Assembly (NCBI GenBank): GCA_947462535.1
Contig: CANHPN010000015.1
Location: 1-44,026 of the forward strand
Origin: Akkermansiaceae bacterium
GTDB taxonomy: Bacteria; Verrucomicrobiota; Verrucomicrobiia; Verrucomicrobiales; Akkermansiaceae
Length of the DNA stretch: 44,026 bases
Reading direction: 5' to 3'
Shown here: one piece after another, positions 18,403-43,724 of the stretch
Position numbering within the stretch: position 1 is the first letter of the stretch
Layout: each line of letters starts with the position of its first letter
Program-made: the position numbers and the translations under genes
Notes under the pieces: generated by a model
Database searches by the model: none
Told to the model about the DNA's origin: nothing
Seen by the model: the letters and a program-made list of their open reading frames with translations, nothing else

Positions 18403-18498
18403 GAGTTTGCAGGAAAGCTGTTGCAGGTTCCGCATGCACTGTCTTAGGCTCGCCGCGTGCCGCACTTGGATATGCAATCTTTCGCCGATGGAGTGGTG

Positions 18499-20468: not shown

Positions 20469-20509
20469 TTTCAGCATTTTAGTATTTCAGGTTCTCAGCT
20501 TTTACCCAA

Positions 20510-21748: not shown

Positions 21749-21759
21749 CTCCCTCCACC

Positions 21760-22398
21760 TTGGAACCTCCCGACAAAGTCGTCAGGATCGACATCCCGAA
21801 AAAAGCGATCTATCGGCTATCGATCTATCATCGCTGCCTTCAGAAGCTGCACGACAACGGCGTGGAGACCGTGAGCTCCACCACCCTCGCCCGCGCCGCC
21901 GGGGTGAAGCCCGCGCAGCTCCGCAAGGACCTCGCCTACCTCGGACAATTCGGCACGCGCGGCCTCGGCTATCCGGTCGAGACGCTTTCCTCGATCATCC
22001 GTGAGACCCTCGGCCGCGAACACCTCCAGCCGGTCATCCTCGTCGGCGCCGGCAACCTCGGCTCAGCGCTGCTCCGCTACCATGGATTCGAGAAGGAAGG
22101 CTTCGAGGTCATCGCCGCGTTCGATGCCAATCCGGAAGCCGCCTTCGCCCGCGGAGTCACCATCCCCGTCTTCCAGGACTCGGAGTTAGAATCCTTCATC
22201 TCCAAAAAATACGTTAAACTCGCGATCCTCTGCGTGCCCGTCGAGTTCGCCCAGGCCGTCGTCAACCGCCTCGTCGCCGCCGGCATCCAGGGCGTGCTGA
22301 ATTTCTCCCCGCTCATGCTCGAATTCCCTCCCGACGTCACCGTCAACAACGTCGATCTCGCGCTCGAGCTCGAGCACCTCAGCTATTTCATCCGCTGA
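21760..22398 (+). CDS. rex: Redox-sensing transcriptional repressor Rex
   Basis: A 212-residue protein with a winged-helix N-terminus (IPKKAIYRLSIYHRCLQKL, then GVKPAQLRKDLAYLGQFGTRGLGY, the Rex signature) and a Rossmann NAD(H)-binding domain with GAGNLG at 96-101. Rex binds DNA when NADH is low and leaves it when NADH is high, so it controls respiratory and fermentative genes. TTG 21760 is the only reasonable start; no ATG or GTG lies between the E2 stop and the conserved domain. A perfect Rex-type operator lies upstream of nuoG at 34210. It is probably cotranscribed with the NADH-producing dehydrogenase. Confidence 0.92.
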   Translation: MEPPDKVVRIDIPKKAIYRLSIYHRCLQKLHDNGVETVSSTTLARAAGVKPAQLRKDLAYLGQFGTRGLGYPVETLSSIIRETLGREHLQPVILVGAGNLGSALLRYHGFEKEGFEVIAAFDANPEAAFARGVTIPVFQDSELESFISKKYVKLAILCVPVEFAQAVVNRLVAAGIQGVLNFSPLMLEFPPDVTVNNVDLALELEHLSYFIR

Positions 22399-22399
22399 C

Positions 22400-22981
22400 A
22401 TGCCGGAAGCTTCGGAAAATTTCCCTAATGTCCCGCTGGTCTCGGCCGTTGATACCGGGAGTCCGCCCCGCCCGCTCACTTGGGAGAAGTTCATCGAGCA
22501 GGCGATGGCGGATTACGAATCCCCGCTCATCGGCTATGCCTCCTCCATTCTCAACGACATCGACCTCGCCCGCGACGTGGTCCAGGACACGTTCATCCGG
22601 CTCTGCCAGCAGGACATCGCCAAGGTCCGGCACAGCCTCAAGTCCTGGCTCTTCACCGTCTGCCGGAACCGCGCGCTCGACATCCTCCGCAAGAACCAGC
22701 GCACCAAACCGCTTGATGAAGTCCAGTGGCAGAAAGTCGCCGGCCCCGGCCTCCAGCCCGACGAACACGCCGACCAACAGGAACTTTCTGCACAACTAAC
22801 CAGCTATCTCGACCGCCTGAACGCCAACCAGCGCGAAGTCATCATCCTCAAATTCCAACAAGGACTCAGCTATCAGGAAATCCAGGAAATCACCGGACTC
22901 AAGACCGGCAAGATCGGATCTCTCATTCACACAGGCATCAAGCGCCTGCGTGAAATCCTGCCGGACGACGTCCGTTTCTGA
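22400..22981 (+). CDS. ECF-family sigma factor
   Basis: A 193-residue sigma-70 family factor. Region 2 spans YASSILNDIDLARDVVQDTF to KSWLFTVCRNRALDILRKN; region 4 spans NQREVIILKFQQGLSYQEIQ to LIHTGIKRLREIL. Region 3 and region 1.1 are absent, as expected for ECF factors. It starts one base after the rex stop and is followed 14 bases later by an anti-sigma-like membrane protein, so a sigma/anti-sigma pair is likely. Target promoters are unknown. Confidence 0.88.
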   Translation: MPEASENFPNVPLVSAVDTGSPPRPLTWEKFIEQAMADYESPLIGYASSILNDIDLARDVVQDTFIRLCQQDIAKVRHSLKSWLFTVCRNRALDILRKNQRTKPLDEVQWQKVAGPGLQPDEHADQQELSAQLTSYLDRLNANQREVIILKFQQGLSYQEIQEITGLKTGKIGSLIHTGIKRLREILPDDVRF

Positions 22982-22995
22982 AACCAACTTTCCCC

Positions 22996-24198
22996 ATGCA
23001 ACTCCACCCCGAAGATCCCCGTCTCACCGCCTACGTCCTGGGCGAACTCGGGCCGGAAGACGCCGCCGAAGTCGAGCTTGCCGTGGCTGCTGATCCTGCG
23101 CTCCAAGCGAAGGTCACGGAAATGAAAGACATCCGGCGATTTCTAGCGGAAAGACTGGCACAGCCAGCCGACAAGCTTCTGCCGCGCCAGCGCCAGAACA
23201 TCCGCCGTTGCGCCCGCCAGGCGGACGCCGCGTCGAAGCGCATCCCCTTCGCCTCGCTCCAAGCCTGGCTCATCCCCGCCGCAGCGGCCGCAGTGCTCGC
23301 GCTGGCCACCTTCATCCTGATGCGCACGCCCGCGGACAAGCCGCTGCCCAACGCCGACCAGAAAGAGTCAACGCCTGAAATCGCGCAAGTCCCGGCACCC
23401 GTCGCCGCACCGGCACCGGCACCATCCCCATGGTTTCTATCAGGAATGGCCCCCGCTCCCCCGACGCTCGAACTGCCGGTTCCATCCGGAAAATCCAACC
23501 TAGCCGCGATTTCAAAATCCATCCGCGAAGACAGGCAACTTCCGCCACACGACGCCGTCCGGCCTGAGGAGATCCTCAACAACTTCCCCCTCCGCCTGAA
23601 CGGAGTCGCCGCCATCGCGCGCAGTGCCACTAACACCTGGCATCCGGACGACCGTGAAAACGGCCTGACCAGCCAGGTCGCCACCCTTTCCACCGAGATG
23701 ATCGCCTGCCCGTGGAAGCCCTCCGCCACCCTGCTTCTCATCTCCATCCGCGGGAACGAGCATCAGGACTGTGATGTCAAAATCACCTTCCACCCGGAAG
23801 CCTCTAACATCTTCCGCTACCGCCTCCTCGGCTTCAACCCCGTCCAAGGCCAGACACCCGGAGACCTCCCCACCACGCTGCCCGCGAAATCGGTCACCAC
23901 GCTGGCCATCGAAATCGAGTCCTCCATCCCGGCCGGCAACCTCGGATCACTCGAATGGTCCGCCGACGGCAAACCCGCGCCCGGCATTCCCCTCGTCCGC
24001 AAGGGCGATGCGGAACCCTCCGACGACGCCCGCTTCGCCGCGCTCGTCTGCACCTTCGCCCAGTGGCTTGCCGCCGAGAAGGACGGCCCGATCGATGCCG
24101 AAATCGTCGCCGCGCTCGCCCGGGAAACCGCCTCCACCACCCTCGCCGCCGACCGCGCGGATTTCCTCAACCTCATCGACCGCTCGCTGCACCTGTAG
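22996..24198 (+). CDS. Membrane anti-sigma-like protein with YfbK-type domain lacking the VWA core
   Basis: A 400-residue protein. The N-terminus (DPRLTAYVLGELGPEDAAEV) has the form seen in anti-sigma proteins paired with ECF factors. One membrane helix follows (about 91-109), then a Pro/Ala linker. From about 188 it reads like the flanks of YfbK-type VWA proteins: RPEEILNNFPLR, STEMIACPWKPSATLLLISI, then KITFHPEASNIFRYRLLGFN and a DUF3520-like end. In those relatives a VWA domain of roughly 200 residues sits between CPWxP...I.I.G and the xITFxP part; here only about five residues (254-258) join them. Probable role: membrane control of the preceding sigma factor. The deletion reading is inference. 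Confidence 0.65.
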   Translation: MQLHPEDPRLTAYVLGELGPEDAAEVELAVAADPALQAKVTEMKDIRRFLAERLAQPADKLLPRQRQNIRRCARQADAASKRIPFASLQAWLIPAAAAAVLALATFILMRTPADKPLPNADQKESTPEIAQVPAPVAAPAPAPSPWFLSGMAPAPPTLELPVPSGKSNLAAISKSIREDRQLPPHDAVRPEEILNNFPLRLNGVAAIARSATNTWHPDDRENGLTSQVATLSTEMIACPWKPSATLLLISIRGNEHQDCDVKITFHPEASNIFRYRLLGFNPVQGQTPGDLPTTLPAKSVTTLAIEIESSIPAGNLGSLEWSADGKPAPGIPLVRKGDAEPSDDARFAALVCTFAQWLAAEKDGPIDAEIVAALARETASTTLAADRADFLNLIDRSLHL

Positions 24199-29052: not shown

Positions 29053-30364
29053 CTATTTCACCTGCTCGATGCCTTCGGGTAGAGTGACGGTGGACTTGAC
29101 GGAGCCGTCGGCCTGCTTGTCGTGGCGGACTTTGATCGGGCCCTTCGGCGTGGGATAAGTGCCCTCCGCCCAAGCCAGGCGACCGAGATGCGGAGTAATT
29201 TCCACCTTCGCGCAGCCGGGAGCGACGTGCGTCACGCCCAGGACGTTCTTGCTCAGCCAAGCGGTCGGTCCGCCTGCCCAGCCGTGGCAGAAACTGTGGC
29301 GGAAGCCGACATAACAATGCGCGCCGAAGTCGCCGTGGAGATCCTTCTTGTCGGGTGCGACGGGCTCGTCGATGCGACCGGTATTTTCCGTCCAGGCGAG
29401 ATCGAAGTCTTCCCAGAAGGTGGTCGCCCCGAAGTCGAGCATGCCGCCCCAGTATTGGCTGATAAAGTCGATCCCGGTGTCGATGTCGTTTGATTTCGCA
29501 AGGGCGTTCAGAACGTTTGCCGAGACCTCTGCGGGATCGCCCACATCGAGTAGGAACTGATGCCGTTCATCCACGCGGTGACGGGCGTGACGTCACGAGT
29601 CATGTCGAGACTCTTCGGGACAACTTCATTGTGGCCGAAAACGCAGTTGATCACGCTCACCTCCGGGTGCATGTCACCAAGCCAGACGAGACGGTCGCGC
29701 TTGATGCCATCCCATAAGAAGTCCTGCATGTTGAGATGCACGGTATAAGCGCCGGTTTCCCAGATTTTGTTGAGTCGCTCGTCGTAGCACTTGAACGAGC
29801 CAACGTAGGGGATATCGCGCAGAGTAAGGACGGCGCGGACCTGGCTGAGCTCGACGTTGACCTTCGGGTCAGCGTTGTCGATGCGGAGAAACCGGAAACC
29901 GCTCGGGCCGACAGTGGTTTTCCCGAGCCACGGGAGTCTGAGGGTTTGATCGCGCAGGGCATGGTCGTTCTGGGCACCGCGCACGCCAACATCGACCATG
30001 GTTTCCGCGACGGACTCGCCGGTGCGGACGCGGACGGATGGCATGTCCTTGTCCTTGGTCATGGGCGTGAAAAGCTCGACCGAACCTGCGATTTCAACGC
30101 CGAAGTCGATGACGATTCCCGCGCTGGGCCCCATCACGAGCGGCGGCACCGGCTCGATGAGCACGGCTTGGCCACTGTGGGGCTTGAGAAGGTTTTCCGA
30201 ACTCCCAACGTCCTTGCCCGAGGTCCAGACAATGCGCTTCGGCTGGATGATGTATGAGGTCAGGGCGCTTTTTTCGCGAGCGGCTCGAGGCTGGGAGGAA
30301 GCGCGCGGCAAGGTGCCACCGAGCCGAAGACAACAACAGTCATCAAGCTCAAGAATGATTTCAT
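29053..30364 (-). pseudogene. Alpha-L-rhamnosidase (GH78), frameshifted and internally deleted
   Basis: ATG 30364 begins a clear signal peptide (MKSFLSLMTVVVFGSVAPCR). At a run of six A residues (30269-30274, minus strand) the frame breaks; one more A would restore LEPLAKKSALTSYIIQPKRI. The next frame carries GH78 N-terminal parts (IVIDFGVEIAGSVEL, FLWDGIKRDRLVWLGDMHPE, WMNGISSYSMW). Near 29545 it passes by a second frame change into C-terminal parts (DFISQYWGGMLDFGATTFWE, SFCHGWAGGPTAWLS). A middle section of the catalytic (alpha/alpha)6 barrel present in relatives is missing. The enzyme would have released rhamnose outside the cytoplasm for the adjacent transporter and isomerase. Confidence 0.85.
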
Positions 30365-30437
30365 GGAATAACCAATGTGAGTAAAAATAAAAACCCTACG
30401 GTCACCCTCGGAATTCTGGAGTCGTCGATCTGATGGA

Positions 30438-31616
30438 TCAATGACCGCCTCCCGAACCCTTGATGTAGGTGCCCACGCCGATGATGATCGTGGAAAGAAT
30501 CAGAGTCAGAATGCCGACGGCAATCAAGCGGTGGGCCTTCTTACTGGAGCCCTTCCATTCGTGGAAAATCCAGCCCCACATCGTGCTGAAAATGATGATC
30601 GAAGCCATGTGCAATGTCCAAGAGGCGAAGCCGAACTTGCCCATTTGCGTCTCGCCCATGGTGTAGAAGAAGAACTGGAAATACCAGGTGGTGCCTGCCA
30701 GCGCGGAGAAAAGATAGTTCCCGAGCATCGGGATTTTCAAGTCACTCTGCGAGTGCGTAGAAGCGCCAGACGATGATCCGCCGCCATGTTCGCCGCCCGA
30801 AGCGGTCAGACCCGCATGCTCGGCTCGGGCGTGCGAGGCGAGATACTGATAGCCGGTGCGATTCTTGATGTTCAGCATGACACACCAGACGAAGTTGGTG
30901 GCGAAGCCGCCGAGCATGACGACGATCAGTTTCGGCAGACCGCTCCAGATGACCGAAGTGCCGGCGGCGACGGAGGCGTCACCGATCGGATTACCCGCAG
31001 TCAGGCCGAAGCTAAAGCAAGCGCTCATGATGCCGGAGAAGGTCGCCACTAGGATGCCTTTCTTGAAGCTGAACTCGGCGATGGCCTTCTTCTTATCCTC
31101 AGCCGACATTTCCTTTTCCTTGGTCGCTCCCGCAAGAGCGGCGATGAAGATGCCCAGCAAACAAACCCCAACACCTAGTAGTGTCACCTGGCCGGCAGAG
31201 CTAGAAGCAATCTCGGTGATCGATTCCGCCACCGGGATACTGGGGAAGAACAGTTTGAAAATCGGCGGGAGCAAGGTGCCGAAGGCCGCGCAGTAACCGA
31301 GCGCGACGCCCATGCCGAGGGACATCCCGAGGTAACGCATCGCCAGGCCGAAGGTCAGCCCGCCGGTGCCCCAGAGCGCTCCGAATAGAAAAGTCCAACT
31401 GAGGGTGGATACGGACTGACTGCTAATCACGCCGAAAACATCCTTGGTCAAAAATGACGCGAGCAGCAGCGGGCAGATGATCCAGGAGAAGAACCCGCCG
31501 ACCAGCCAGTAGGTTTCCCACGACCACTTTTTAACGCCTTTGTAAGGCACATAGAAACTTCCCGAGGCCAAGCCGCCGAGCCAGTGAAATACAACGCCGA
31601 GTAATGCAGATCCCAT
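30438..31616 (-). CDS. rhaT: L-rhamnose-proton symporter RhaT
   Basis: A 392-residue inner-membrane transporter with about ten hydrophobic helices. RhaT hallmarks are GGLASGSFYVPYKGVKKWSW at the N-terminus, FGALWGTGGLTFGLAMRYLG, MGVALGYCAAFGTLLPP and GIMSACFSFGLTAG. It imports L-rhamnose with H+. The Gly/Ser/His-rich cytoplasmic loop (EHGGGSSSGASTHS) is longer than in the enterobacterial protein. It lies 42 bases downstream of rhaA in the same direction, so an operon is likely. The next gene is the broken rhamnosidase. Confidence 0.92.
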   Translation of the reverse strand: MGSALLGVVFHWLGGLASGSFYVPYKGVKKWSWETYWLVGGFFSWIICPLLLASFLTKDVFGVISSQSVSTLSWTFLFGALWGTGGLTFGLAMRYLGMSLGMGVALGYCAAFGTLLPPIFKLFFPSIPVAESITEIASSSAGQVTLLGVGVCLLGIFIAALAGATKEKEMSAEDKKKAIAEFSFKKGILVATFSGIMSACFSFGLTAGNPIGDASVAAGTSVIWSGLPKLIVVMLGGFATNFVWCVMLNIKNRTGYQYLASHARAEHAGLTASGGEHGGGSSSGASTHSQSDLKIPMLGNYLFSALAGTTWYFQFFFYTMGETQMGKFGFASWTLHMASIIIFSTMWGWIFHEWKGSSKKAHRLIAVGILTLILSTIIIGVGTYIKGSGGGH

Positions 31617-31658
31617 AATAGAGTGTCAGTTGGATTTTTGGATTGAGATGGATTTTGA

Positions 31659-32927
31659 TTAGGCGCGCTTGCTCAGCACTGCGGTCTCGTATTGCTTGAC
31701 ATCGGCGAGCCAGGCGCTGCCGGCCGGGACGTTTTGCGATTCGCAATAAGCATCCCAAACCGCGCCCCATGGCAAGCTCTTGGATTCCTCCATCAGCGCG
31801 AGGCGCGAGGTGTAGTCGCCGGACTTCTCGGCGTCGCGAAGCGCGGCCGGCTCCAGCAAGGCCATCAGCAGCGCCTTGAGCGTGTTGCGCGTGCCGATGG
31901 TCCAAGCCGCGATCCGGTTAATGCTGGCATCGAAGAAGTCCAGGCCGATGTGGGTGCGGGCGAGCAATTTGTTGCGCACGAGCTCGGCGGCGATGGACTG
32001 GAGCGCGTCGTCAAGAGTGACGACGTGGTCGCTGTCCCAGCGCACCCCCCGGCTGACGTGAAGGAGGATTTCCGGCACATACATCAGCGCGGAGGAAAGC
32101 TTGTCGGCGATGCCTTCCGTCGGGTGGAAATGACCGGCGTCAAGGCAAAGTAGCTTCTGGTTCTTGATCGCGTAGCCCATGTAGAACTCGTGCGAGCCGA
32201 CGACGTAGCTCTCGCTGCCGATACCGAACAGCTTGCACTCGACCGCGTCGAGATGGTGTTTCGGATTCAACTTCCTCGCGAATACCTGATCCAGCGAATC
32301 AGCTAGACGCTGGCGCGGCGCGAGGCGGTCCACCGGGGTGTCCTTGTAGCCGTCGGGAATCCAGACGTTGGTCACGGTCGGCGAGCCGAGCGCCTTGCCC
32401 ATCGCCGCGCCGATCTCGCGGGAGGCGATGCAGTGCTCGATCCAGAAATCGCGGATCGCCTTCTTCGGGTGGGAGAGGGTGAAGCCGTCGGCTGCCTTGG
32501 GGTGCGCGAAGCAGGTCGGGTTGAAATCCATGCCCATGCCGTTGGATTTTGCCCAGTCGATCCAGCCTTTGAAATGTTCGGGCTTGATCTCGTTGCGATC
32601 GACCTTTTTGCCGCCGAACTCGCCGTAGAAAGCGTGGAGATTGAGGCGGTGCTTGCCGGGGATGAGCGAGAGCGCCTTGTCGAGGTCCGCGCGGAGTTCA
32701 TCCGGAGTGCGGGCCTTGCCGGGATAGTTGCCGGTCACCGCGATGCCGCCGCTGAGGCCTTCGCCGGAGTTTTCAAAGCCGCCGACATCGTCGCCCTGCC
32801 AGCAGTGGAGGGAAATCGGGATTCCCGCGAGCTTGCCCATGGCGGCATCGGTATCGACGCCGAGACCGGCGTATCGGGCTTGGGCGAGCTTGTAGGACTG
32901 GGCGATAGATTTTGAAGTCTTGGACAT
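31659..32927 (-). CDS. rhaA: L-rhamnose isomerase
   Basis: A 422-residue Mn-dependent TIM-barrel isomerase converting L-rhamnose to L-rhamnulose, close to the usual length of about 420. Motifs: [14 protein letters not shown] at the N-terminus, [46 protein letters not shown] and [19 protein letters not shown], which supply the metal and substrate ligands. ATG 32927 is chosen by homology. It is the first gene of the minus-strand rhamnose run and is divergent from an AraC-type regulator. No rhamnulokinase or rhamnulose-1-phosphate aldolase gene is in the window. Confidence 0.93.
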
Positions 32928-33009
32928 ACTGGATCGGTTCGCGACAGCCTGCGTGGAATTCCGCAGAAAAACCTCCACTGTTTGGCCAAAAACCAGCACG
33001 ATCCCGCCA
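32928..33009. promoter_or_regulatory. Divergent rhaA / araC-type regulator control region
   Basis: This 82-base gap must carry both promoters. It contains an imperfect dyad CTGCGTGGAATTCCGCAG (32949-32966) and a perfect palindrome TTTGGCCAAA (32981-32990). Either could be an operator for the adjacent AraC-type protein; AraC-family sites are often direct rather than inverted repeats, so this is tentative. Confidence 0.4.
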
Positions 33010-33879
33010 GTGAAACGTGTCCTCAAGATCGACGAGTGGTTCCACCCCGACGGCTTCCCCATCAGCGTGGAGCGAAGGGAGCCTCAGGAGCTTTTCGAAC
33101 CCCACTCCCACGAGTTCGCCGAGCTGGTGATCGTGACCGGCGGCAAATGCCTGCACGTGACCGGCAATGATTCCTGGGAACTCACGCCGGGCGACGTGTT
33201 CGTCATCGCCGGTCCGCGCGAGCACGAATACCGGAATCTCGAAAATCTGCGGCTGGTCAACATCCTCTATCAACCCAACCAGTTGAAAATGGGCCTGCTG
33301 GACCTGCCGTCCGTCGCCGGCTACCACGCGCTTTTCACGCTGGGATCTTCGTGGAGAAAACGCCAGCCGACCAAGGGCAGGCTGCACCTCAGCGGCAAGG
33401 AAATGGTCCAGTTGATCGAGCTGGTGAACCGGCTGGAGGTTGAATTGAAAACCCGCGAACCGGGATTCGGCTTCATGGCCACAGCAGCGTTCATGCAGAT
33501 CATCGGCTTGTTATCGCGCTGTTACGGCCGCAGCCCGTCGCCCGACGGTCGCGCCCTGCTGCGCATCGGCGAAGCGCTTTCCCACTTGGAGCGCAACATC
33601 CACCGCGAGGTCGATCTGGAGGAATTGGCCAGCATCGCCCACATGTCCCGGCGGAGCTTCTTACGGGTTTTCCAATCCGCCACCGGCACCTCTCCGCTCG
33701 CCTGGGTCATCGAGCAAAGGATCAACCGCGCGTGCAATCTGCTGCGCCACACCGACCGCCGGATCACGGAGGTCGCCTTCGACGTCGGCTTCAACGACAG
33801 CAACTATTTCACCCGGCAGTTCCGCAAAGTCACCGGGCTTTCCCCGCGGGACTACCGGCTGCGAAACGGCGTAGCGTGA
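33010..33879 (+). CDS. AraC-family regulator, probable rhamnose activator
   Basis: A 289-residue regulator. An N-terminal cupin sensor domain ([20 protein letters not shown] and [17 protein letters not shown]) is followed by two C-terminal helix-turn-helix units ([20 protein letters not shown] and [20 protein letters not shown], then GLSPRDYR). The length and sensor type resemble RhaS/RhaR. GTG 33010 is the start that leaves a normal N-terminus ([14 protein letters not shown]); an upstream TTG would overlap rhaA. It probably senses L-rhamnose and controls the divergent rhaA-rhaT run; the ligand is inferred from context. Confidence 0.85.
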
Positions 33880-34209: not shown

Positions 34210-34227
34210 TTGTGAAACTTTTCACAA
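34210..34227. promoter_or_regulatory. Rex operator
   Basis: TTGTGAAACTTTTCACAA is a perfect 7-4-7 inverted repeat and matches the Rex consensus TTGTGAA-N4-TTCACAA exactly. It lies 93 bases upstream of the nuoG ATG and 7 bases upstream of a plausible -35 element. A rex gene is present at 21760. Confidence 0.85.
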
Positions 34228-34234
34228 AGCACGC

Positions 34235-34263
34235 TTGCCCGGTCCGCCCCAAATGGACATATT
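34235..34263 (+). promoter_or_regulatory. Candidate sigma-70-type promoter of the nuo operon
   Basis: TTGCCC (34235-34240) and CATATT (34258-34263) are separated by 17 bases and would place the start of transcription near 34270. Each box has two mismatches to consensus. The Rex operator directly upstream supports the location. Confidence 0.45.
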
Positions 34264-34320: not shown

Positions 34321-36078
34321 ATGAGCGACACACCTTCGGCGACTGCGGAATTGAAACTGCCCAAAGACCAAGCTACCGAAAAAGGCCTAGTCAACGTCCA
34401 GATCGATGGAGTTTGGCACCAATTTCCCAAGGGCACACGGATGATCGAGGCCTGCCGCCAAGCGCAGGTCATCGTCCCCCACTACTGCTACCACCCGAAG
34501 CTCAGCTCGCCCGGAAATTGCCGGATGTGTCTCGTGCAAATGGGCATGCCGCCGCGTCCCACGCCAGGCCAGGAGCCCCAACGCGACGAGAACGGCTACG
34601 AAATCATCGGCTGGATCCCCCGCCCCGTCATCGCCTGCGCGAATACGATCGGCGAAAACATGGGCATCCGCACCACCGGCGAGCTCGTCGAAAAATGCCG
34701 CGAGGGCGTGATGGAATTTCTCCTCATCAACCACCCGCTCGACTGCCCGATCTGCGACCAGGCCGGCGAATGCCGCCTCCAGGAGCAATCCGTCCAACAC
34801 GGCCGCGGCGTCTCGCGGTTCGTGGACATGAAGGTGAAAAAGCCAAAAAACGTCGAGATCGGCCCGCGCATCCGGCTAGACGACGAGCGCTGCATCATGT
34901 GCAGCCGCTGCATCCGCTTCATGGACGAAGTCGCCGGCGACCCGGTGCTCGGCTTCACCCAGCGCGGCGCCCACACCACCCTCACCGTCCACCCGGACCG
35001 CCTGCTCGACTCGAACTACTCTCTCAACACCGCCGACATCTGTCCCGTCGGCGCGCTGACTTCCAACGACTTCCGATTCCAAATGCGCGTCTGGTTCCTC
35101 AAGGAAACCCCGAGCATCGACGTCAATTGCGGCACCGGCACCAACATCACGATCTGGACCCGGGAAAATAAAATCCACCGCATCACCCCGCGCCTGAACG
35201 ACGAGGTGAACTCCGCCTGGATGCCCGACTCGCACCGCCTGAATTTCCACTATATCGACGGCGAGGCCCGCCTCACCGAGCCGCTCGTCAAAAGCGGTAG
35301 CCGCCACCTCCCGGAAACCTGGGCCCAAGCCCTCGCCTCCGCCGCCGCCGAGATCAAAGCCATCCCCGCCGCCCAAACCGCGATCATCGCCTCCGGCCGC
35401 ATGACCAACGAGGAGCTCTTCCTCACCCGCGCCCTCGCCGCGGAAATCGGCACCAGCCAGCTCGCGCTCGTCCCCCGCCTCGCCGAGGCCGACGCTCTGC
35501 TCATCGCCGCCGACCGCAACCCGAACACGACCGGTGCCAAGCTCGTCCTCGGTGTTGAGGAGCCTTATTGGAAACTGAATTCCATTCGCGACGGTGTCCG
35601 CAACGGCTCGATCAAATCGCTCATCGTCCTCGGCGACGACCTCATCACCGACGCCGACTTCACTGCCGAAGACCTCGGAAAACTCGATTTCCTTCTTCAA
35701 ACCAGCGTCCTCGCCAATCCAACCGCCGAGCAAGCGCACATCGTGCTGCCCTCCGCCGCCTTCGCCGAAAAACGCGGCTCCATGGTCAACCTCGCCGGGC
35801 GCCTCCAGCGCCTCAACCGCGCCGTCGAACCGCAAGGCCAGGCGCACGACGATTGGGAAATTCTCCGCGACCTGATCCTCGCCCTCTCCGGCGGGAAAAA
35901 TGAGGTCTATCACATCGAGGACGTCTTCAAAGCGCTCGCGGAGAACGTCTCCGCCTTCAACGGCCTCACACTTTCGAAAATCGGCCATCAAGGCGCGCAA
36001 ATCGCTGACACAGGCTATCAAATCCCGCTTCTCGCCAACGAGCGCGCCCGCAAGGCGGCAGGACTGATCAACGGCTGA
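34321..36078 (+). CDS. nuoG: NADH-quinone oxidoreductase subunit G (short form)
   Basis: A 585-residue Fe-S subunit of the peripheral arm of complex I, passing electrons from NuoEF towards the quinone site. Cluster ligands: [2Fe-2S] Cys56, Cys67, Cys70 and Cys106; the His-ligated [4Fe-4S] His138, Cys142, Cys145 and Cys151; a second [4Fe-4S] Cys191, Cys194, Cys197 and Cys241 (CPVGAL). The C-terminal molybdopterin-oxidoreductase-like part is much shorter than in the roughly 900-residue E. coli protein. It is the first gene of an eight-gene run; nuoA-F are not next to it. Confidence 0.93.
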   Translation: MSDTPSATAELKLPKDQATEKGLVNVQIDGVWHQFPKGTRMIEACRQAQVIVPHYCYHPKLSSPGNCRMCLVQMGMPPRPTPGQEPQRDENGYEIIGWIPRPVIACANTIGENMGIRTTGELVEKCREGVMEFLLINHPLDCPICDQAGECRLQEQSVQHGRGVSRFVDMKVKKPKNVEIGPRIRLDDERCIMCSRCIRFMDEVAGDPVLGFTQRGAHTTLTVHPDRLLDSNYSLNTADICPVGALTSNDFRFQMRVWFLKETPSIDVNCGTGTNITIWTRENKIHRITPRLNDEVNSAWMPDSHRLNFHYIDGEARLTEPLVKSGSRHLPETWAQALASAAAEIKAIPAAQTAIIASGRMTNEELFLTRALAAEIGTSQLALVPRLAEADALLIAADRNPNTTGAKLVLGVEEPYWKLNSIRDGVRNGSIKSLIVLGDDLITDADFTAEDLGKLDFLLQTSVLANPTAEQAHIVLPSAAFAEKRGSMVNLAGRLQRLNRAVEPQGQAHDDWEILRDLILALSGGKNEVYHIEDVFKALAENVSAFNGLTLSKIGHQGAQIADTGYQIPLLANERARKAAGLING

Positions 36079-36106: not shown

Positions 36107-37363
36107 ATGCCGGAACTCATTTTTCAAATCGCCATCATCGTCGCGAAGATCGTCATCCTGACTTTCATGGTGGTCTTGCCGTTGGTCCCCGTCTCCGTTT
36201 ACTTCGAGCGTCGGTTCTCCGCCGTCATCCAGGACCGGGTCGGACCTAACCGGGTCGGCATTCCGCTGACTTTGTTCGGGTTCAAAAAGGACTTCCACTT
36301 CTTCGGACTGATCCAACCGATCGCCGACGGCTTGAAACTTTTCCTTAAGGAAGACTTCACTCCCGCCCACGTCCGCAAGGCATTCTACTGGATGGCTCCG
36401 GCGCTCACCGTCGTCCCCGCGCTCATCACCGTGTGCGTCGTCCCCTTCGGTTCCCCGATCAGTATCTTCGGCCACACAGAAAAACTCGTCATCGCGGATC
36501 TCGATATCGGGCCGTTGTTTGTATTCTCCGTCGCCTCTCTATCCGTCTATGGCATCACCCTCGCCGGCTGGTCCTCCAACTCGAAGTTCCCCTTCATCGG
36601 CGGCGTCCGCTCCACCGCGCAGATGATCTCCTACGAAATCGCCCTCGGCCTTTCGATCATCCCGGTGATAATGTATTATGGCGATCTCAACCTCAGCACC
36701 ATCGTCCAACAGCAAGCCGACCATGGCTGGCTCCTGCTTCCGCTCTGGGGCCACGACGCGGACCATACCTTCACCAGTAAGCTGCTCTTCTGGTTTCCCG
36801 CCGCCATCGCCTTCCTGATCTTCACCATCTCCATCTTCGCGGAAACAAACCGCATGCCCTTCGACCTTCCCGAGTGTGAAACCGAACTCGTCGGCGGCTA
36901 CCACACCGAATATTCTTCGATGAAATTCGCGATGTTCTTCATGGGCGAATATGCCGCGATGGTCATAGGCTCGGCGCTCATCATCACGCTCTTCCTCGGC
37001 GGCTGGTCGATCGGCTTCGGCCTCGACGCGATGGTCGCCAATCTCCACATCGGCGACTTCTACTTCGGCGGACTCATCCACCTCGGTTGTTTCATGACCA
37101 AGCTGATCGGCTTCATCCTGTTCTTCATCCTCGTCCGCTGGACCGTGCCGCGGTTCCGCTATGACCAGCTCATGAAACTCGGCTGGGTCGTCTTCTTTGA
37201 AGCCGCCCTCATCAACGTCTTCCTCGCCGCGCTCATCGTCGCCGCGCCACAGCTCAAAGGCACGATCATCGGTATTGGCGCCGTCCTGCTCGTCATCGTC
37301 ACCGCTGCGGTGATCTGGGTAGCCAAGGTCTCCGAAGAAACCCCGAAAGTCCTTCGCGCCTAA
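36107..37363 (+). CDS. nuoH: NADH-quinone oxidoreductase subunit H
   Basis: A 418-residue membrane subunit that forms the quinone-binding junction with the peripheral arm. Conserved features are VYFERRFSAVIQDRVGPNRV near the N-terminus, LIQPIADGLKLFLKED, FAETNRMPFDLPECETELVG with the loop acids, and about eight hydrophobic helices. It is longer than the roughly 325 residues usual in proteobacteria, mainly through the insert around DHGWLLLPLWGHDADHTF and the C-terminal helices. It lies 28 bases after nuoG. Confidence 0.95.
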   Translation: MPELIFQIAIIVAKIVILTFMVVLPLVPVSVYFERRFSAVIQDRVGPNRVGIPLTLFGFKKDFHFFGLIQPIADGLKLFLKEDFTPAHVRKAFYWMAPALTVVPALITVCVVPFGSPISIFGHTEKLVIADLDIGPLFVFSVASLSVYGITLAGWSSNSKFPFIGGVRSTAQMISYEIALGLSIIPVIMYYGDLNLSTIVQQQADHGWLLLPLWGHDADHTFTSKLLFWFPAAIAFLIFTISIFAETNRMPFDLPECETELVGGYHTEYSSMKFAMFFMGEYAAMVIGSALIITLFLGGWSIGFGLDAMVANLHIGDFYFGGLIHLGCFMTKLIGFILFFILVRWTVPRFRYDQLMKLGWVVFFEAALINVFLAALIVAAPQLKGTIIGIGAVLLVIVTAAVIWVAKVSEETPKVLRA

Positions 37364-37388: not shown

Positions 37389-37955
37389 ATGGCCGTCGTC
37401 AAACTCCAGCGCCCGAAGCTCAATTTCGGTGAGAAAATCTACTTCGGAGCACTCATCAAGGGCTTCTTCCTCACCATGACCCACGCGGTGAAAACGCTGC
37501 GTGGCAAATCCGTAGGAGCCGACGAACTCGCGTCATCCGGCCTCGGCGTGACCATGCAGTTCCCCGAACAACGCTGGGACGAGCATCTCCCCGAATACTA
37601 CCGCGGTGCCCCCGCCCTCGTCACCGACGAGCAAGGCCGCGAACGCTGCGTTTCCTGCCAGCTCTGCGAATTCATCTGCCCGCCCAAGGCCATCAAGATC
37701 GTTCCTAGCGAAATTCCGTCCGACGACCCATGGGCCAAGGTCGAGAAGCGCCCGCTGGAATTCGAAATCGACATGATCCGCTGCATCTACTGCGGCATGT
37801 GCGAGGAAGTCTGCCCCGAACAGGCGATCTATCTGCGCAAAGACTACCTCATCACCGGCCTCAAGCGCGCCGACATGGTCCACGACAAGAAGAAGCTCTA
37901 CGAAATCGGCGGCACCCGCGTCGGCCTCGTCAACAAGTGGAACGAACTGAAGTAA
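37389..37955 (+). CDS. nuoI: NADH-quinone oxidoreductase subunit I
   Basis: A 188-residue ferredoxin-like subunit carrying the two [4Fe-4S] clusters N6a and N6b. The ligand sets are Cys87, Cys90, Cys93, Cys97 (CVSCQLCEFICPP) and Cys132, Cys135, Cys138, Cys142 (CIYCGMCEEVCPE). The N-terminal amphipathic part (LIKGFFLTMTHAVKTL) anchors it to the membrane arm. It lies 25 bases after nuoH and 19 before nuoJ. Confidence 0.95.
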   Translation: MAVVKLQRPKLNFGEKIYFGALIKGFFLTMTHAVKTLRGKSVGADELASSGLGVTMQFPEQRWDEHLPEYYRGAPALVTDEQGRERCVSCQLCEFICPPKAIKIVPSEIPSDDPWAKVEKRPLEFEIDMIRCIYCGMCEEVCPEQAIYLRKDYLITGLKRADMVHDKKKLYEIGGTRVGLVNKWNELK

Positions 37956-37974: not shown

Positions 37975-38538
37975 ATGCCTTCTTATCTCTTCTGGCTCTT
38001 CTCCACCGTCATGCTCATCGGCGGGGTCTCCGTGATCGCCTTCCGTAATCCGGTTTCCAGCGCGCTCTCGGTCGTCACCTGTTTCGTCGGTCTCGCCGGT
38101 CTGTTCATCGGCCTCAGCGCCTTCTTCGTCGGCGTCATTCAAATCCTCGTCTATACCGGCGCGGTGATGGTATTGTTCCTCTTCATCATCATGCTACTCG
38201 ACCTTAAGGATGAGGAAAAAGCCGCCAAGCCCCTGCTGCCCATCGCGGCCGGCATCGCTCTGGTCGCCGCTTTCACCGTGCAGCTCATCGGCATCCTCTC
38301 CCGCACGCCGAACGTGATCGCGCCGAACCTCGACAAGGAAACCCTCGCCGCGGCGGCCAGTGGATTTCCCGCCACCAGCAAGATCGCCACCACGCTCACC
38401 CAAGGCAAACTCCCCGACGTCCACCTCATCGGCCACACGCTTTTCACCCAATACAATCTCCCGCTCCAGATCCTCGGTGTCCTGTTGCTCGTCGCCACCA
38501 TCGGTGTCGTCATCCTCTCCAAGCGTCAGGCGGACTAA
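37975..38538 (+). CDS. nuoJ: NADH-quinone oxidoreductase subunit J
   Basis: A 187-residue membrane subunit with about five helices. FRNPVSSALSVVTCFVGLAG and the conserved pi-bulge helix with VQILVYTGAVMVLFLFIIML are diagnostic. The loop between helices 4 and 5 (about 105-150) is longer than usual. It helps link quinone reduction to proton pumping. Operon position is normal, between nuoI and nuoK. Confidence 0.93.
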   Translation: MPSYLFWLFSTVMLIGGVSVIAFRNPVSSALSVVTCFVGLAGLFIGLSAFFVGVIQILVYTGAVMVLFLFIIMLLDLKDEEKAAKPLLPIAAGIALVAAFTVQLIGILSRTPNVIAPNLDKETLAAAASGFPATSKIATTLTQGKLPDVHLIGHTLFTQYNLPLQILGVLLLVATIGVVILSKRQAD

Positions 38539-38550
38539 CCATCACTTCTC

Positions 38551-38871
38551 ATGGCCACTCTCAACGACTACCTCCTCGTCTCCGGACTCCTCTTCGCCAT
38601 CGGCCTCGCGGGCGTGGTGCTGCGCCGGAACGTCATCATCGTCTTCATGTGCCTCGAGCTCATGCTCAGCGCGGCGAACCTCACGCTAGTCGCGTTTTCC
38701 CGCTTCAACGTCCCGCCTAACGGCCTTCCCGACTACAACGGCCAGATGCTCGTTTTCTTCGTCATCACCGTCGCTGCCGCGGAAGTCGCCGTCGGCCTCG
38801 CGATCATCGTCGCCCTCTACCGCGCCCGCCAAACCATCCACACGGATGAACTGACCTCGCTGAAAGGCTGA
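38551..38871 (+). CDS. nuoK: NADH-quinone oxidoreductase subunit K
   Basis: A 106-residue subunit with three helices, the MrpC-like part of the pump. The buried glutamates appear in [17 protein letters not shown] and [20 protein letters not shown]. Length is normal for the family. It lies 12 bases after nuoJ. Confidence 0.94.
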
Positions 38872-38921: not shown

Positions 38922-40742
38922 ATGAATCTCGCTTGGACCCTCCTCTTCCTCCCGCTCGCCGTCGCGGCGGCGAACCAACTCGTCCTGAAAAAAACCGGAC
39001 TCGCACCGATCGTCTCGGTGGGCTCCGCGCTGGCGACCTTCGTGATCGCTCTGATACTGTTAGGTAAAAATGAAACTGCCTATTTCGCCTGGGCGACGAT
39101 CGGGGACTTTTCCATCAACATCGGCATCAAGCTCGACCAGCTTTCCACCGGCATGATGATCGTAGTCACCGGCGTCGGCCTGCTGGTACACGTTTTTTCG
39201 CTCGCCTACATGAAGGACGACGCCGCCAAGGCCCGCTACTTCGCCGGCCTGTCACTTTTCATGTTCTCAATGACCGGCATCGTGCTGGCGGACAACTTCA
39301 TCATGACCTTCATCTTCTGGGAGCTGGTCGGACTCAGTTCCTATCTGCTCATCGGTCACTGGTATCAGAAGGAATCCGCCGCCGATGCGGCGAAAAAAGC
39401 GTTCCTCTGCAACCGCATCGGCGACTTCGGCTTCATGGTCGGAATCCTCATGCTGTGGGGCATCACCGGCCACCTCGCTTTCGACCAAATGAAGGGCGGA
39501 CTCGAAGCCTTTCAAGCCGCCAATCCCGCGATCTTCGGCGGCGTGCTTTCCGCCGCCGTGCTCTGCATCTTCTGCGGTGCTGTTGGAAAATCCGCCCAGC
39601 TTCCGCTCCACGTCTGGCTGCCGGACGCGATGGAAGGCCCGACTCCGGTGTCCGCCCTCATCCACGCCGCCACCATGGTCGCCGCCGGGGTTTACATGCT
39701 CTTCCGCCTGCAATTCACGCTCGGTTTCGAAGTCTTCGAGGGCCTGCAAGCCAGCGCCGTCATCGCCTGGACCGGCGGCATCACCGCCCTGGCCGCCGCT
39801 CTAATGGCCACCCAACAGGACGACATCAAGCGCGTGCTCGCCTACTCGACCCTCTCCCAGCTCGGCTACATGGTCATGGCCGTCGGCCTCGTTTCCGGTG
39901 AGGCCGGCATGTTCCACCTCTTCACCCATGCCTGGTTCAAGGCTCTGCTCTTCCTCGGCTCCGGCGCGGTCATCTTCGCCTGCCACCACGAACAAGACAT
40001 CTGGAAAATGGGCGGACTGCTGAAGAAAATGCCGATCACCGGATTCACCTTCCTCATCGGATTCGCCGCGCTGATCGCAGTTCCATTCACCTCCGGATTC
40101 TTCTCCAAGGAGCAAATCCTTGAAGCGGCCCATCAGAAGGAACCCATCCTCTTCTGGATCGCCGCCGCCGTCGCGGTGTTCACCCCGTTCTACATGACCC
40201 GCCTTTACGTCGTCGCGTTCCTCGGAAAAAACCGTTCCGAAAACGCCTCGCACGCCCATGAAGTCGGCCCGCTGATGTCCGGTCCACTCGTGCTTCTCGC
40301 CACCCTCGGCGCGATCGCCGGTTTCCCGTTCATCGCGGAAAAATTCTCCCCGGCCTATCACCAGCCGGAACATCTCATCCACCTCGGCTTCGTCACCTAC
40401 GTCTCCATCGGCGCGCTTCTCACCGGCGTGATCGCCGGATGCGTGCTCTACGCCGGCAAGGAAAAGGACCCCGTCTCGATCCCGCTGCTGCAAAACCGCT
40501 TCTATATCGACGGCCTCTACGACAATTTCCTCGTCCGTTATTTCCAGGACACCTTCGCCGCGATCATCGCCTTCTTCGACGAGTTCATCATCAGCGGCCT
40601 CATCGTCGGCGGTCTCAGCCGCGCCGCCGAATCCTTCGGCAACCTCTTCCGCAAAGTCCAGTCCGGCAGCCTGCAAGGCTACGCCTTCGCCTTCGGCCTC
40701 GGCGTCATCCTCGTCGTCTATTTCACCGTGTTCGGCCGCTGA
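38922..40742 (+). CDS. nuoL: NADH-quinone oxidoreductase subunit L
   Basis: A 606-residue antiporter-like proton-pumping subunit at the far end of the membrane arm. Landmarks are the helix-5 Glu in FIFWELVGLSSYLLIGHWYQ, GKSAQLPLHVWLPDAMEGPT with the key Lys, and the Lys-containing helix near HAWFKALLFLGSGAVI. The C-terminal lateral helix and anchor (about 500-606) are present (YFQDTFAAIIAFFDEF). Fifty bases separate it from nuoK, with no promoter that I can identify. Confidence 0.95.
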   Translation: MNLAWTLLFLPLAVAAANQLVLKKTGLAPIVSVGSALATFVIALILLGKNETAYFAWATIGDFSINIGIKLDQLSTGMMIVVTGVGLLVHVFSLAYMKDDAAKARYFAGLSLFMFSMTGIVLADNFIMTFIFWELVGLSSYLLIGHWYQKESAADAAKKAFLCNRIGDFGFMVGILMLWGITGHLAFDQMKGGLEAFQAANPAIFGGVLSAAVLCIFCGAVGKSAQLPLHVWLPDAMEGPTPVSALIHAATMVAAGVYMLFRLQFTLGFEVFEGLQASAVIAWTGGITALAAALMATQQDDIKRVLAYSTLSQLGYMVMAVGLVSGEAGMFHLFTHAWFKALLFLGSGAVIFACHHEQDIWKMGGLLKKMPITGFTFLIGFAALIAVPFTSGFFSKEQILEAAHQKEPILFWIAAAVAVFTPFYMTRLYVVAFLGKNRSENASHAHEVGPLMSGPLVLLATLGAIAGFPFIAEKFSPAYHQPEHLIHLGFVTYVSIGALLTGVIAGCVLYAGKEKDPVSIPLLQNRFYIDGLYDNFLVRYFQDTFAAIIAFFDEFIISGLIVGGLSRAAESFGNLFRKVQSGSLQGYAFAFGLGVILVVYFTVFGR

Positions 40743-40775: not shown

Positions 40776-42209
40776 ATGCTCGCACTCCTCGTCTTTCTCC
40801 CGATCGCCGCGTTCATCGCGATCCTCTTCGGCTCTCCGGCCCGGCTCACCGCCATCGCCGCCTCCGCGCTCAACCTCGCGCTCGGCATCTACGCCGCGTT
40901 TTCTTGGAAATGCAGCTGCTGGTCGTTTTCCGTGCCCGTCCTCGAAAAGCCAGCACTCAATCTCGCCTTCGGATTCACCGATGGCATGAGCGCCATCATG
41001 GTGCTGCTATCCGTGATCGTCGCCCTCGCCGCCGTGCTTTCCGGTAAGGCTCCGGAAGGCAAGGAAAAACTCTACTATGGCTCGTCGCTCCTCATCTCCA
41101 GCGGCGCGCTCGGCGCCTTCGCCGCGACCGACCTGTTCTTTTTCTTCGCCTTCCACGAACTCGCGCTCATCCCGACCTTCCTGATGATCGGCATCCTCGG
41201 CCGAGGCGACCGCCGCGAGGCCGCTTGGAAAATCACCATCTATCTGGGTCTCGGCTCCATCGTCCTGCTAGCCGGCCTCGTCTGGCTCGCCAACCTCACC
41301 GGCACCTACGACATGGTGAAAATGGTCGCCGCCGCCGGGTCCATTGATCCCGCTTCACAGAAAGGCATCGCCGCGCTGCTTATTGTCGGTTTCGGCACGC
41401 TCGTTTCGCTCTTCCCGTTCCACTCGTGGGCCGCTCCTGCCTACGCCAGCGCGCCCGCTCCGGTCGCCATGCTGCACGCCGGCGTTTTGAAAAAATTCGG
41501 CCTCTACGGGCTGCTCCGCCTCGCCATTCCGCTCGTCCCAGAAGGCCTGCAATTCTGGCTCACTCCCCTGCTCGTTCTGCTGCTCGGCAACATCCTCTGG
41601 GTCGGCTGGGTCACCATCTCCCAAAAGCGCCTCGACCTAATGTTAGGAAATTCCTCGGTGATGCACATGGGCTACATCTTCCTCGCCATCGCCGCGCTCA
41701 TCGCCTTCCCGGAAAACCCGCTCGCCCGCTCCGCCGCCATCGTCCTGATGTTCGCCCACGGCATTTCCATCGCCCTGTTATTCGGCCTCGCCGACCGCAT
41801 CGAGCGCAACACCGGCTCGCTCGACCTCCAGGACCTCGGCGGTCTCGCCAAATCCGCGCCCGGCCTCGCCTTCCTGTTCGGCATCGCCGCCATGGCGTCT
41901 ATCGGACTTCCCGGCCTCGCCAATTTCTCCGGCGAAATCCTCGTCTTCCTCGCCGCCTTCAAGAGCTATAACGGCACCACCGGCCTCGGCCCCGTGCAGA
42001 TCGCCTGCATCCTCTCCATCTGGGGCGTGGTCATCTCCGCCGTTTACATGCTCCGCGCCTATCGGAACATCTTCCAAGGCCCTGCCGTGAAAGCCACCGA
42101 ATCCGCCGCCGACCTCACCCTGGCAGACCGCATCCCGGCGACGCTGCTGGTTCTCGCGCTCTTCGCAGTCGGCTTCTATCCGAACCTTCTACTCAATCTT
42201 CTCAAGTAA
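40776..42209 (+). CDS. nuoM: NADH-quinone oxidoreductase subunit M
   Basis: A 477-residue antiporter-like pump subunit with about 14 helices. FFFFAFHELALIPTFLMIGI holds the helix-5 Glu. GTLVSLFPFHSWAAPAYASA and APVAMLHAGVLKKFGLYGLL hold the channel Lys and neighbours. It lies 33 bases after nuoL. Confidence 0.95.
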   Translation: MLALLVFLPIAAFIAILFGSPARLTAIAASALNLALGIYAAFSWKCSCWSFSVPVLEKPALNLAFGFTDGMSAIMVLLSVIVALAAVLSGKAPEGKEKLYYGSSLLISSGALGAFAATDLFFFFAFHELALIPTFLMIGILGRGDRREAAWKITIYLGLGSIVLLAGLVWLANLTGTYDMVKMVAAAGSIDPASQKGIAALLIVGFGTLVSLFPFHSWAAPAYASAPAPVAMLHAGVLKKFGLYGLLRLAIPLVPEGLQFWLTPLLVLLLGNILWVGWVTISQKRLDLMLGNSSVMHMGYIFLAIAALIAFPENPLARSAAIVLMFAHGISIALLFGLADRIERNTGSLDLQDLGGLAKSAPGLAFLFGIAAMASIGLPGLANFSGEILVFLAAFKSYNGTTGLGPVQIACILSIWGVVISAVYMLRAYRNIFQGPAVKATESAADLTLADRIPATLLVLALFAVGFYPNLLLNLLK

Positions 42210-42254: not shown

Positions 42255-43724
42255 ATGCCCGCCTATTATTTAGAAGCCCTCACCGTCACCCTCGGCATCG
42301 TCCTACTGATGGCCGAAACGTTTTGCTCCTGCAAAAGCAAAGCCTGGGTCGGCATCTCCGCCGCCGTTGGCCTGGTGGTCATCTTTGGACTCACCTGCAT
42401 CGCCATCGGCCCTGACGCGAAGCCCGACGCCGCCTGGGCCAAGTGGCCGCTGTGGAACTTCTACAACTTCGACGCCCTCGCAAAATTCTATAAAATCTTC
42501 GCCATCGTCACCACCATCCTCGTCCTGCTGCTCGCCGTCGATTACCGGAAAATCCTCTCCCGCTTCACCGAAACTCCCGACTCCGAAGCCGGCACCGGCG
42601 AATTCTACTGCCTCCCCGTCTTCGCCTGCGCCGGCATGATGTGGCTCGCCTCCGCCAAGGACCTCGCCGGAGCCTTCGTCGCGCTCGAACTCGTCACCGT
42701 CACTTTCTACATCCTCGTCGCCTACATGCGCCGCAACGTCGGCTCGCTCGAGGCCGGGGTGAAATACCTCATCCTCGGCGCACTCAGCACCGGTTTCCTC
42801 GTTTACGGCATCGCCTGGGTTTACGGCTCCACCGGCACCATGAGCCTCGCGGAAATGCCCGAGCGCCTCACCCACATCACCCACTCCACACCGCTGCTTT
42901 TCGGCATCGCCCTCGTCATGGTCGGCCTCGGTTTCAAGATCGGCGCAGTCCCCATGCAAGTCTGGATTCCCGATGTCTATCAAGGCGCGCCCACTCCCGT
43001 CACCGCCTTCCTCTCCGTCGGCTCGAAAGCCGCCGGCTTCATCCTCACCATCCGTTTCCTCGAGCCCTTCCTCGCCAGCGAAATCACCCGCGGCCCGGTC
43101 CTCACGCTGCTGCTCATCCTCGCCTGCGCCACCCTGCTGTTCGGAAATCTCGCCGCCATCCCGCAGACCAACTTCAAACGCCTGCTCGCATACTCCTCCA
43201 TCGCGCACGCCGGATTCCTCCTCCTCGCACTCGCCGCCTGGAAGCCGGAAACCGCCGTTTCCGAAGGTTCCGTCAAGGTCGTCTCCTTCTACCTCGCCAC
43301 TTATCTGCTCATGACGCTCGGCGTCTTCTTCGTGCTCGCCCAAGTCCGCATCCAGCGCGACGGCGAAATGATCAGCGATTTCAACGCCCTCGGAAAAACC
43401 AACCCGCGGCTCGCCCTCGCCCTAACCGTCCTGCTCGCCGCCCTAGCAGGTATCCCGCTCACCGCCGGATTCCTCGGCAAGTTCCTCGTCTTCTCGCTCG
43501 CCGTCGAAGCCAAAGTCTGGTGGGGCGTCGGCATCGCCCTCATCGCCGCAGCCGCCGGATTCTACTACTACTTCAAAGTCATCCGCGCCATGTGGTGGAG
43601 CGACGCGGCAGATGCCAAGGCCATCGTCCTCCCCTGCATCAGCAAGCTCTGTATCGCCATGCTCACCATCGCCACACTCGTGCTCGGCTTCTGGCCGCAG
43701 CCGATCTGGGCACTGTTGAAATAA
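42255..43724 (+). CDS. nuoN: NADH-quinone oxidoreductase subunit N
   Basis: A 489-residue antiporter-like subunit, last gene of the run. FVALELVTVTFYILVAYMRR carries the helix-5 Glu; FKIGAVPMQVWIPDVYQGAP and LLAYSSIAHAGFLLLAL carry the later Lys/His channel elements. The 45-base gap before it contains an AT-rich GAATCTGGATTCTGGACTCT repeat remnant. A strong dyad follows 6 bases after its stop. Confidence 0.95.
   Translation: MPAYYLEALTVTLGIVLLMAETFCSCKSKAWVGISAAVGLVVIFGLTCIAIGPDAKPDAAWAKWPLWNFYNFDALAKFYKIFAIVTTILVLLLAVDYRKILSRFTETPDSEAGTGEFYCLPVFACAGMMWLASAKDLAGAFVALELVTVTFYILVAYMRRNVGSLEAGVKYLILGALSTGFLVYGIAWVYGSTGTMSLAEMPERLTHITHSTPLLFGIALVMVGLGFKIGAVPMQVWIPDVYQGAPTPVTAFLSVGSKAAGFILTIRFLEPFLASEITRGPVLTLLLILACATLLFGNLAAIPQTNFKRLLAYSSIAHAGFLLLALAAWKPETAVSEGSVKVVSFYLATYLLMTLGVFFVLAQVRIQRDGEMISDFNALGKTNPRLALALTVLLAALAGIPLTAGFLGKFLVFSLAVEAKVWWGVGIALIAAAAGFYYYFKVIRAMWWSDAADAKAIVLPCISKLCIAMLTIATLVLGFWPQPIWALLK

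Follow-up and report, generated by a model that had tools for sequence, protein, structure and literature searches.

A Rex-type operator upstream of nuoG and a predicted respiratory Rex regulon in Verrucomicrobiales

The Rex protein of Streptomyces avermitilis acts as a repressor of nuo and atp, also controls ndh2, and binds less well in the presence of NADH, as described in the available part of PMC5355995. The targets given there include nuoA1-N1, atpIBEFHAGDC and ndh2 as well as cyd, hppA and rex-hem, an aerobic respiratory regulon in which nuo forms one operon whose operator overlaps the -35 element. In Gram-positive facultative anaerobes such as Staphylococcus aureus, the operator reads TTGTGAAW4TTCACAA and the targets are anaerobically induced genes (PMC2883068, in part). 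Outside the Gram-positives, Caldithrix abyssi has Rex and a consensus-type site that precedes rex and an [FeFe]-hydrogenase operon (PMC5317091, in part), while Desulfovibrio Rex is said to coregulate energy-conservation genes, the targets named being Rnf and sulfate-reduction genes (PMC4215793, in part, citing Ravcheev 2012). The Rex consensus TTGTGAANNNNTTCACAA is printed in both PMC5355995 and PMC5317091. Within the portions of the literature covered by our search, Rex control was described neither in Verrucomicrobia nor for alternative complex III; the Ravcheev 2012 survey lay outside the scope of that search.

We analysed a window of 44,026 nucleotides from an Akkermansiaceae bacterium that carries a putative operator of this type. 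A Rex operator before nuo was already known in kind, as was Rex control of nuo and atp in Streptomyces (PMC5355995, in part). As in S. avermitilis, the site matches the printed consensus and the predicted targets are those of aerobic respiration. Unlike in S. avermitilis, complex I is split here, several of its fragments have their own operator, the operator mostly sits ahead of the -35 element, and the candidate targets extend to alternative complex III and, in relatives, a polyprenyl synthase. The locus resembles S. aureus in its operator, but no anaerobically induced genes of that kind were found at the perfect sites examined. It resembles C. abyssi in pairing Rex with a consensus-type site outside the Gram-positives, and Desulfovibrio in linking Rex to energy conservation, but differs from both in the genes concerned. 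As far as our search reached, the phylum, the alternative complex III target and operators on several complex I fragments appear to be new, and the polyprenyl synthase target may be new as well.

The putative operator, TTGTGAAACTTTTCACAA, is a perfect 7-4-7 inverted repeat at 34210–34227, assigned to neither strand and identical to the Rex consensus. It ends 93 bases before the ATG of nuoG (34321), in the gap between the end of an AraC/RhaS-type gene (33879) and nuoG. A first-pass annotation had reported this repeat and its distance from nuoG, and both sequence and coordinates proved exact. No other perfect 7-4-7 Rex-type repeat occurs in the window, and scanning it with up to three mismatches returned one further site, at 30184, with three. 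In the whole genome (2.82 Mb in 104 contigs, 95% complete), we found four perfect sites, one with one mismatch and seven with two. A backward control pattern matched three times at up to two mismatches and never at zero. By chance, 0.002 (base composition) to 0.003 (third-order Markov model trained on 157,737 sampled bases of this genome) perfect sites are expected per genome. The seven two-mismatch sites among the 12 places, one of them apparently within a coding frame (C26), were not taken as operators, the backward control giving three at that threshold. We consider it very probable that Rex, the NADH-sensing repressor, does dock at the repeat at 34210–34227.

Downstream of the repeat, the plus strand carries nuoG (34321–36078, 585 aa; TIGR01973, E 7.3e-138, 461 bits, just under the cut-off of 470), nuoH (36107–37363; NuoH models, best E 6.5e-108), nuoI (37389–37955; TIGR01971, E 1e-30), nuoJ (37975–38538; PF00499, E 3.3e-34), nuoK (38551–38871; PF00420, E 2.7e-31) and nuoL (38922–40742; PF00361 and PF00662). 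After nuoL come two more proton-antiporter subunits matched by PF00361 and named by their order, nuoM (40776–42209) and nuoN (42255–43724). A rhamnose cluster adjoins the nuo genes at 29508–33879, with a rhamnosidase-like frame, RhaT, RhaA and an AraC-type regulator.

The same window encodes Rex at 21760–22398 on the plus strand (TTG start, 212 aa). NCBIfam Rex models scored above cut-off in a search on the longer frame 20665–22398, and the protein combines the N-terminal DNA-binding domain PF06971 (2.5e-19) with a Rossmann-type domain (PF02629, 6.3e-19). No second PF06971 match turned up in the genome. Against solved Rex structures (best PDB chain 3.7e-44), the protein can be aligned from residue 11 through its last residue, and VGAGNLGSALL, which includes the loop VGAGNLG, lies within this alignment; by homology to the Rex family, the protein is predicted to bind NADH. 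The gene starts 11 bases downstream of the end of pdhC, the last gene of pdhABC (18457–21748, plus strand), which encodes E1 alpha, E1 beta and E2 of a pyruvate-type dehydrogenase; since the models fall below curated cut-offs, the exact substrate is not settled. The first-pass annotation was thus right to place rex at 21760 behind a dehydrogenase operon. Its further idea, that this order links the producer of NADH to the consumer, does not generalize, as pdhABC and rex are contiguous in only three of 12 relatives examined (G103, G094 and G100), with pdhC-rex also present in G137. As to control of rex by its own product, we saw no perfect operator in the 12 rex neighbourhoods of relatives, nor near rex in the window. 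Genes for an ECF sigma factor and an anti-sigma-like protein lie downstream of rex (22400–24198).

The four perfect sites of the genome precede nuoG, nuoD (C19), an alternative complex III-type operon (C31) and the gene for the ATP synthase a subunit (C5), and the single one-mismatch site precedes nuoB-nuoC (C50). The C31 operon consists of a multihaem cytochrome gene followed by genes for a large ferredoxin-domain protein and an NrfD-type membrane protein, which we take to be actA-actB-actC of alternative complex III. The five best sites thus all stand at the heads of oxidative phosphorylation operons, which indicates that control extends beyond nuoG-N to much of the respiratory chain. The expectation that further nuo genes would carry sites was borne out for nuoBC and nuoD-E. 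It failed for nuoF (C21, apart from nuoE), where the best site in the 650 bases examined has four mismatches. A thioredoxin-like gene lies between nuoD and nuoE (L014:7703-8371), as in several relatives, and the frame preceding nuoD has its stop codon inside the Rex operator (L014:6355-6372). Elsewhere, a second NuoF-like protein and a NuoG-like protein (1039 aa open frame) are encoded side by side (G000:C7:4236-7585, L025), perhaps a formate dehydrogenase or hydrogenase module.

Sites were annotated in ten relatives besides the window's own genome, all among the 117 site-bearing genomes listed. Of 58 perfect sites in the ten relatives, 57 precede genes for complex I, complex III, ATP synthase, an NDH-2-like protein or polyprenyl synthase: ten each for nuoG, nuoD, actA and atpB, eight for nuoB, five for ndh2-like genes and four for polyprenyl synthase (pps). 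The nuoD, actA, atpB and nuoB targets were assigned by tblastn with proteins of the window's genome, and Pfam was run on all nine of the NDH-2-like (pyridine nucleotide oxidoreductase) and polyprenyl synthase targets; the name NDH-2 and the role of the polyprenyl synthase in making the quinone side chain are our inference. Some sites lie between divergent genes, where the regulated side is a judgement. The one perfect site outside this set (L111 in G117, at 2501) is located 12 bases ahead of a TetR gene and has a DUF5690 gene on its other side. In L092 and L105, a TetR-like gene with nearly the same N-terminus as the L111 TetR diverges from the ndh2-like gene across the operator. In L089, L104 and L119, a divergent open frame starts 48–63 bases from the polyprenyl synthase site on the other strand, and these frames could share its operator. 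Fermentative genes had also been put forward as possible targets, an idea that found no support among the perfect sites of the window's genome and the ten relatives.

We then asked how general the nuoG site is in the family, using the 53 genomes (own included) with a full NuoG among the 60 searched; G141, G142, G144, G150, G155 and G156 lacked a full-length match to NuoG, and in G153 NuoG is split between contigs. In 30 of the 42 rex-bearing genomes (own included), the 600 bases ahead of nuoG contain a perfect site, at a distance of 54–120 bases. Its absence from close relatives, named beforehand as grounds for abandoning the operator, was therefore not what we observed. Among the 12 remaining rex-bearing genomes, ten have nuoD-E-F before nuoG and a perfect site before nuoD, G154 ends at a contig edge there, and G158 lacks a perfect site before its nuoD-led operon. 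In the ten rex-less family genomes and in G171, no perfect site was found before nuoG or anywhere else. Separately, G144, G150 and G156 each have rex and two perfect sites; as they have no full NuoG match, Rex may control other targets there.

Across 141 genomes of the order, perfect sites occurred in 117 and PF06971 in 110, and the backward control was empty in all but one, which gave a single match. Adding 36 more genomes of the family (177 in total; both sets were samples drawn evenly from a larger group), we counted 139 genomes with rex and sites, none with rex but no sites, 30 with neither, and eight with sites but no rex. The 30 site-free genomes counted as rex-less include G171, whose single PF06971 match is below cut-off (24.5 bits), and G142 (69% complete), and 23 of them belong to one genus (g2; probably Akkermansia, from NuoG identity and locus names) and so are not independent. 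The eight discordant genomes are all drafts of 72–95% completeness, in which rex likely lies on a missing contig. These eight aside, the operator is present with rex and lost without it. On a NuoD tree (31 rows, without Akkermansia rows) the rex-less state needs four changes, at least three of them forced by well supported branches. A pairs test on an earlier tree gave three pairs (p 0.25); its site and rex states came from the same lists, so it adds no evidence.

Where rex has been lost, the remains of the operator can be seen. G103, G137 and the window share the gene order pdhC-rex-sigma. In the congeneric G077, the sigma gene comes immediately after pdhC, and in its sister G172 pdhC is followed by other DNA. 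G077 and G172 are both rex-less, and their nuoG operators read GGCGGAAATTTTTCGGAA (G077) and AGGGGAAATTTTTGCGAA (G172), with six mismatches each. Beside the destroyed arms, both genomes keep the downstream CACGCTTGC and the CATAGT of the nuoG promoter. The same pattern of decayed operator and kept promoter is seen at atpB in G077 and G172, and the atpB operator has three mismatches in G160 and five in G171, with a spacer of six in both. In L219, a named relative whose NuoG is 83% identical, the nuoG operator is also decayed. Over 11 sequences, the arms had decayed most and the A/T centre least, in a table where the two atpB rows (G160 and G171) are shifted by one base in register and the L219 row has no rex assignment. 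The nuoD operator remains nearly intact in rex-less G077, with one change, and has two changes in G160; the stop codon inside the nuoD operator of the window's genome may slow the decay of this operator in rex-less relatives.

The first-pass annotation had placed a plausible promoter beside the repeat. A sigma-70 consensus scanner called no promoter upstream of nuoG, so the assignment rests on conservation in relatives: by inspection, a putative -35 element (TTGCCC, 34235–34240, plus strand) begins 7 bases past the operator and is followed after a spacer of 17 by a putative -10 element (CATATT, 34258–34263). Among the 30 nuoG promoters, 24 have TTG at offset 7 from the operator, and CATAGT or CATATT stands 17 bases past the -35 hexamer in 23 and nearby in 29. 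TTG is also found at offset 7 at atpB (10 of 11) and ndh2 (5 of 5), and at offset 5 at nuoD (9 of 11) and nuoB (6 of 9). Overall, the arrangement of operator, 5 to 7 bases and TTG recurs in 60 of 66 rows of five unrelated promoter classes, in an alignment that does not contain the L111 site; rows within a class are related, and independence holds between classes. At actA (11 rows) and pps (4 rows), no TTG was seen within 30 bases past the operator, and by inspection the operator itself may cover the -35 element at actA or the -10 element at pps.

The palindrome could in principle serve another regulator. The Crp core is TGTGA-N6-TCACA. The palindrome contains this core letter for letter, and a Crp helix-turn-helix is present in some site-bearing relatives (55 bits in G103, 54.8 bits in G100), as would suit a Crp/Fnr-type site. 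Yet PF13545, the one model by which we assessed Crp, in 12 genomes, had no match at E 0.001 in the window's own genome, which is 95% complete, or in G094 and G129, and these carry four, five and five perfect sites; the same model matched all 14 control genomes. Conversely, rex-less G077 has a partial PF13545 match just over cut-off (29.6 bits) yet no perfect site, and throughout the order the sites follow rex. Mainly on the absent PF13545 match in the window's genome and the co-occurrence of sites with rex, we rejected a Crp/Fnr site, which we consider very unlikely. A palindrome without function, arisen by chance, is more remote still: nothing that we found speaks for it, and where chance predicts 0.003 sites per genome, 30 of 42 rex-bearing members of the family carry a perfect one ahead of nuoG. 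The site counts, this conservation and the Markov expectation led us to dismiss it.

A further alternative accepts Rex as the binding protein and turns its effect around, so that Rex would activate nuoG instead of repressing it. The geometry lends this some weight, since the operator ends 5–7 bases before TTG, and hence upstream of the -35 element, in the 60 promoter rows counted above, and a site wholly upstream of -35 is less typical of a repressor than the -35 overlap in S. avermitilis (PMC5355995, in part). Against it, the S. avermitilis protein represses nuo and atp (same source), and the actA and pps operators of the same regulon may cover -35 or -10, the usual places for a repressor. 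We consider activation unlikely, though somewhat less so than a Crp/Fnr site.

We therefore favour, with a probability of roughly 0.87, the reading that 34210–34227 serves the Rex encoded at 21760 as an operator; this Rex would lower nuoG-N expression when NADH is scarce and release it when NADH rises, the same switch acting at the other operators. At a low ratio of NADH to NAD+, a Rex dimer would bind the repeat just upstream of the -35 element and nuoG-N transcription would be lowered; when NADH rises, Rex would bind it and let go, allowing complex I to be made. Acting likewise at nuoBC, nuoD-E, alternative complex III and ATP synthase, this switch would adjust much of the energy-conserving chain together. 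In the most speculative step, bound Rex would repress by denying polymerase, perhaps through its alpha C-terminal domain, access to the A/T-rich stretch above -35. The observations behind this reading are the site, the one Rex of the genome, the regulon-wide placement of operators, their loss together with rex and the conserved operator-promoter geometry; that Rex binds the operators, that it represses instead of activating and that it responds to NADH is what the Rex family would lead one to expect. Counting against it are the nearly intact nuoD operator of G077, the missing nuoD site of G158, nuoF without a site, the TetR site in G117 and the eight discordant drafts. The earlier proposal of a Rex operator controlling nuoG-N draws strong support from the co-occurrence with rex, the decay where rex was lost and the conserved placement, and proved too narrow, as other oxidative phosphorylation operons are included. 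The site is best described as one putative operator among several in a Rex regulon that takes in much of oxidative phosphorylation.

To gauge the wider spread, we considered 51 of 80 nuoG loci, the other 29 being titled as other phyla or groups. In eight, nuoG or its nuoD-led operon is preceded by a perfect site, and in three more (L239, L244 and L247, titled as one Verrucomicrobia subdivision 3, one Limisphaerales and one Verrucomicrobia only) a one-mismatch site heads a nuoBCDEFG set. The other 40 showed no site with zero or one mismatch in the 0.3 to 5 kb upstream. The one-mismatch operators on nuoBCDEFG sets suggest that an operator on the undivided operon is older than the split. We offer a broader scenario tentatively, with the odds leaning somewhat against it as a whole: Rex might be a single NADH switch for nearly all oxidative phosphorylation in Verrucomicrobiales (the complex I fragments, alternative complex III and ATP synthase, joined in relatives by NDH-2 and the synthesis of the quinone tail), and as an ancestral nuo operon with one operator broke up, several of its fragments might have gained operators of their own. 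The A/T core might double as a promoter-strengthening element masked by Rex, so that after several losses of Rex the arms decayed while the core and promoter stayed.

To our knowledge, regulation in this phylum has been little studied. Our reading predicts which signal would set the respiratory chain there and provides a specific list of target promoters. Because rex has been lost repeatedly in nature, leaving decayed operators beside intact promoters, the prediction can be tested by comparing pairs of relatives. It would also illustrate how control can remain unified after an operon has been split into dispersed pieces.
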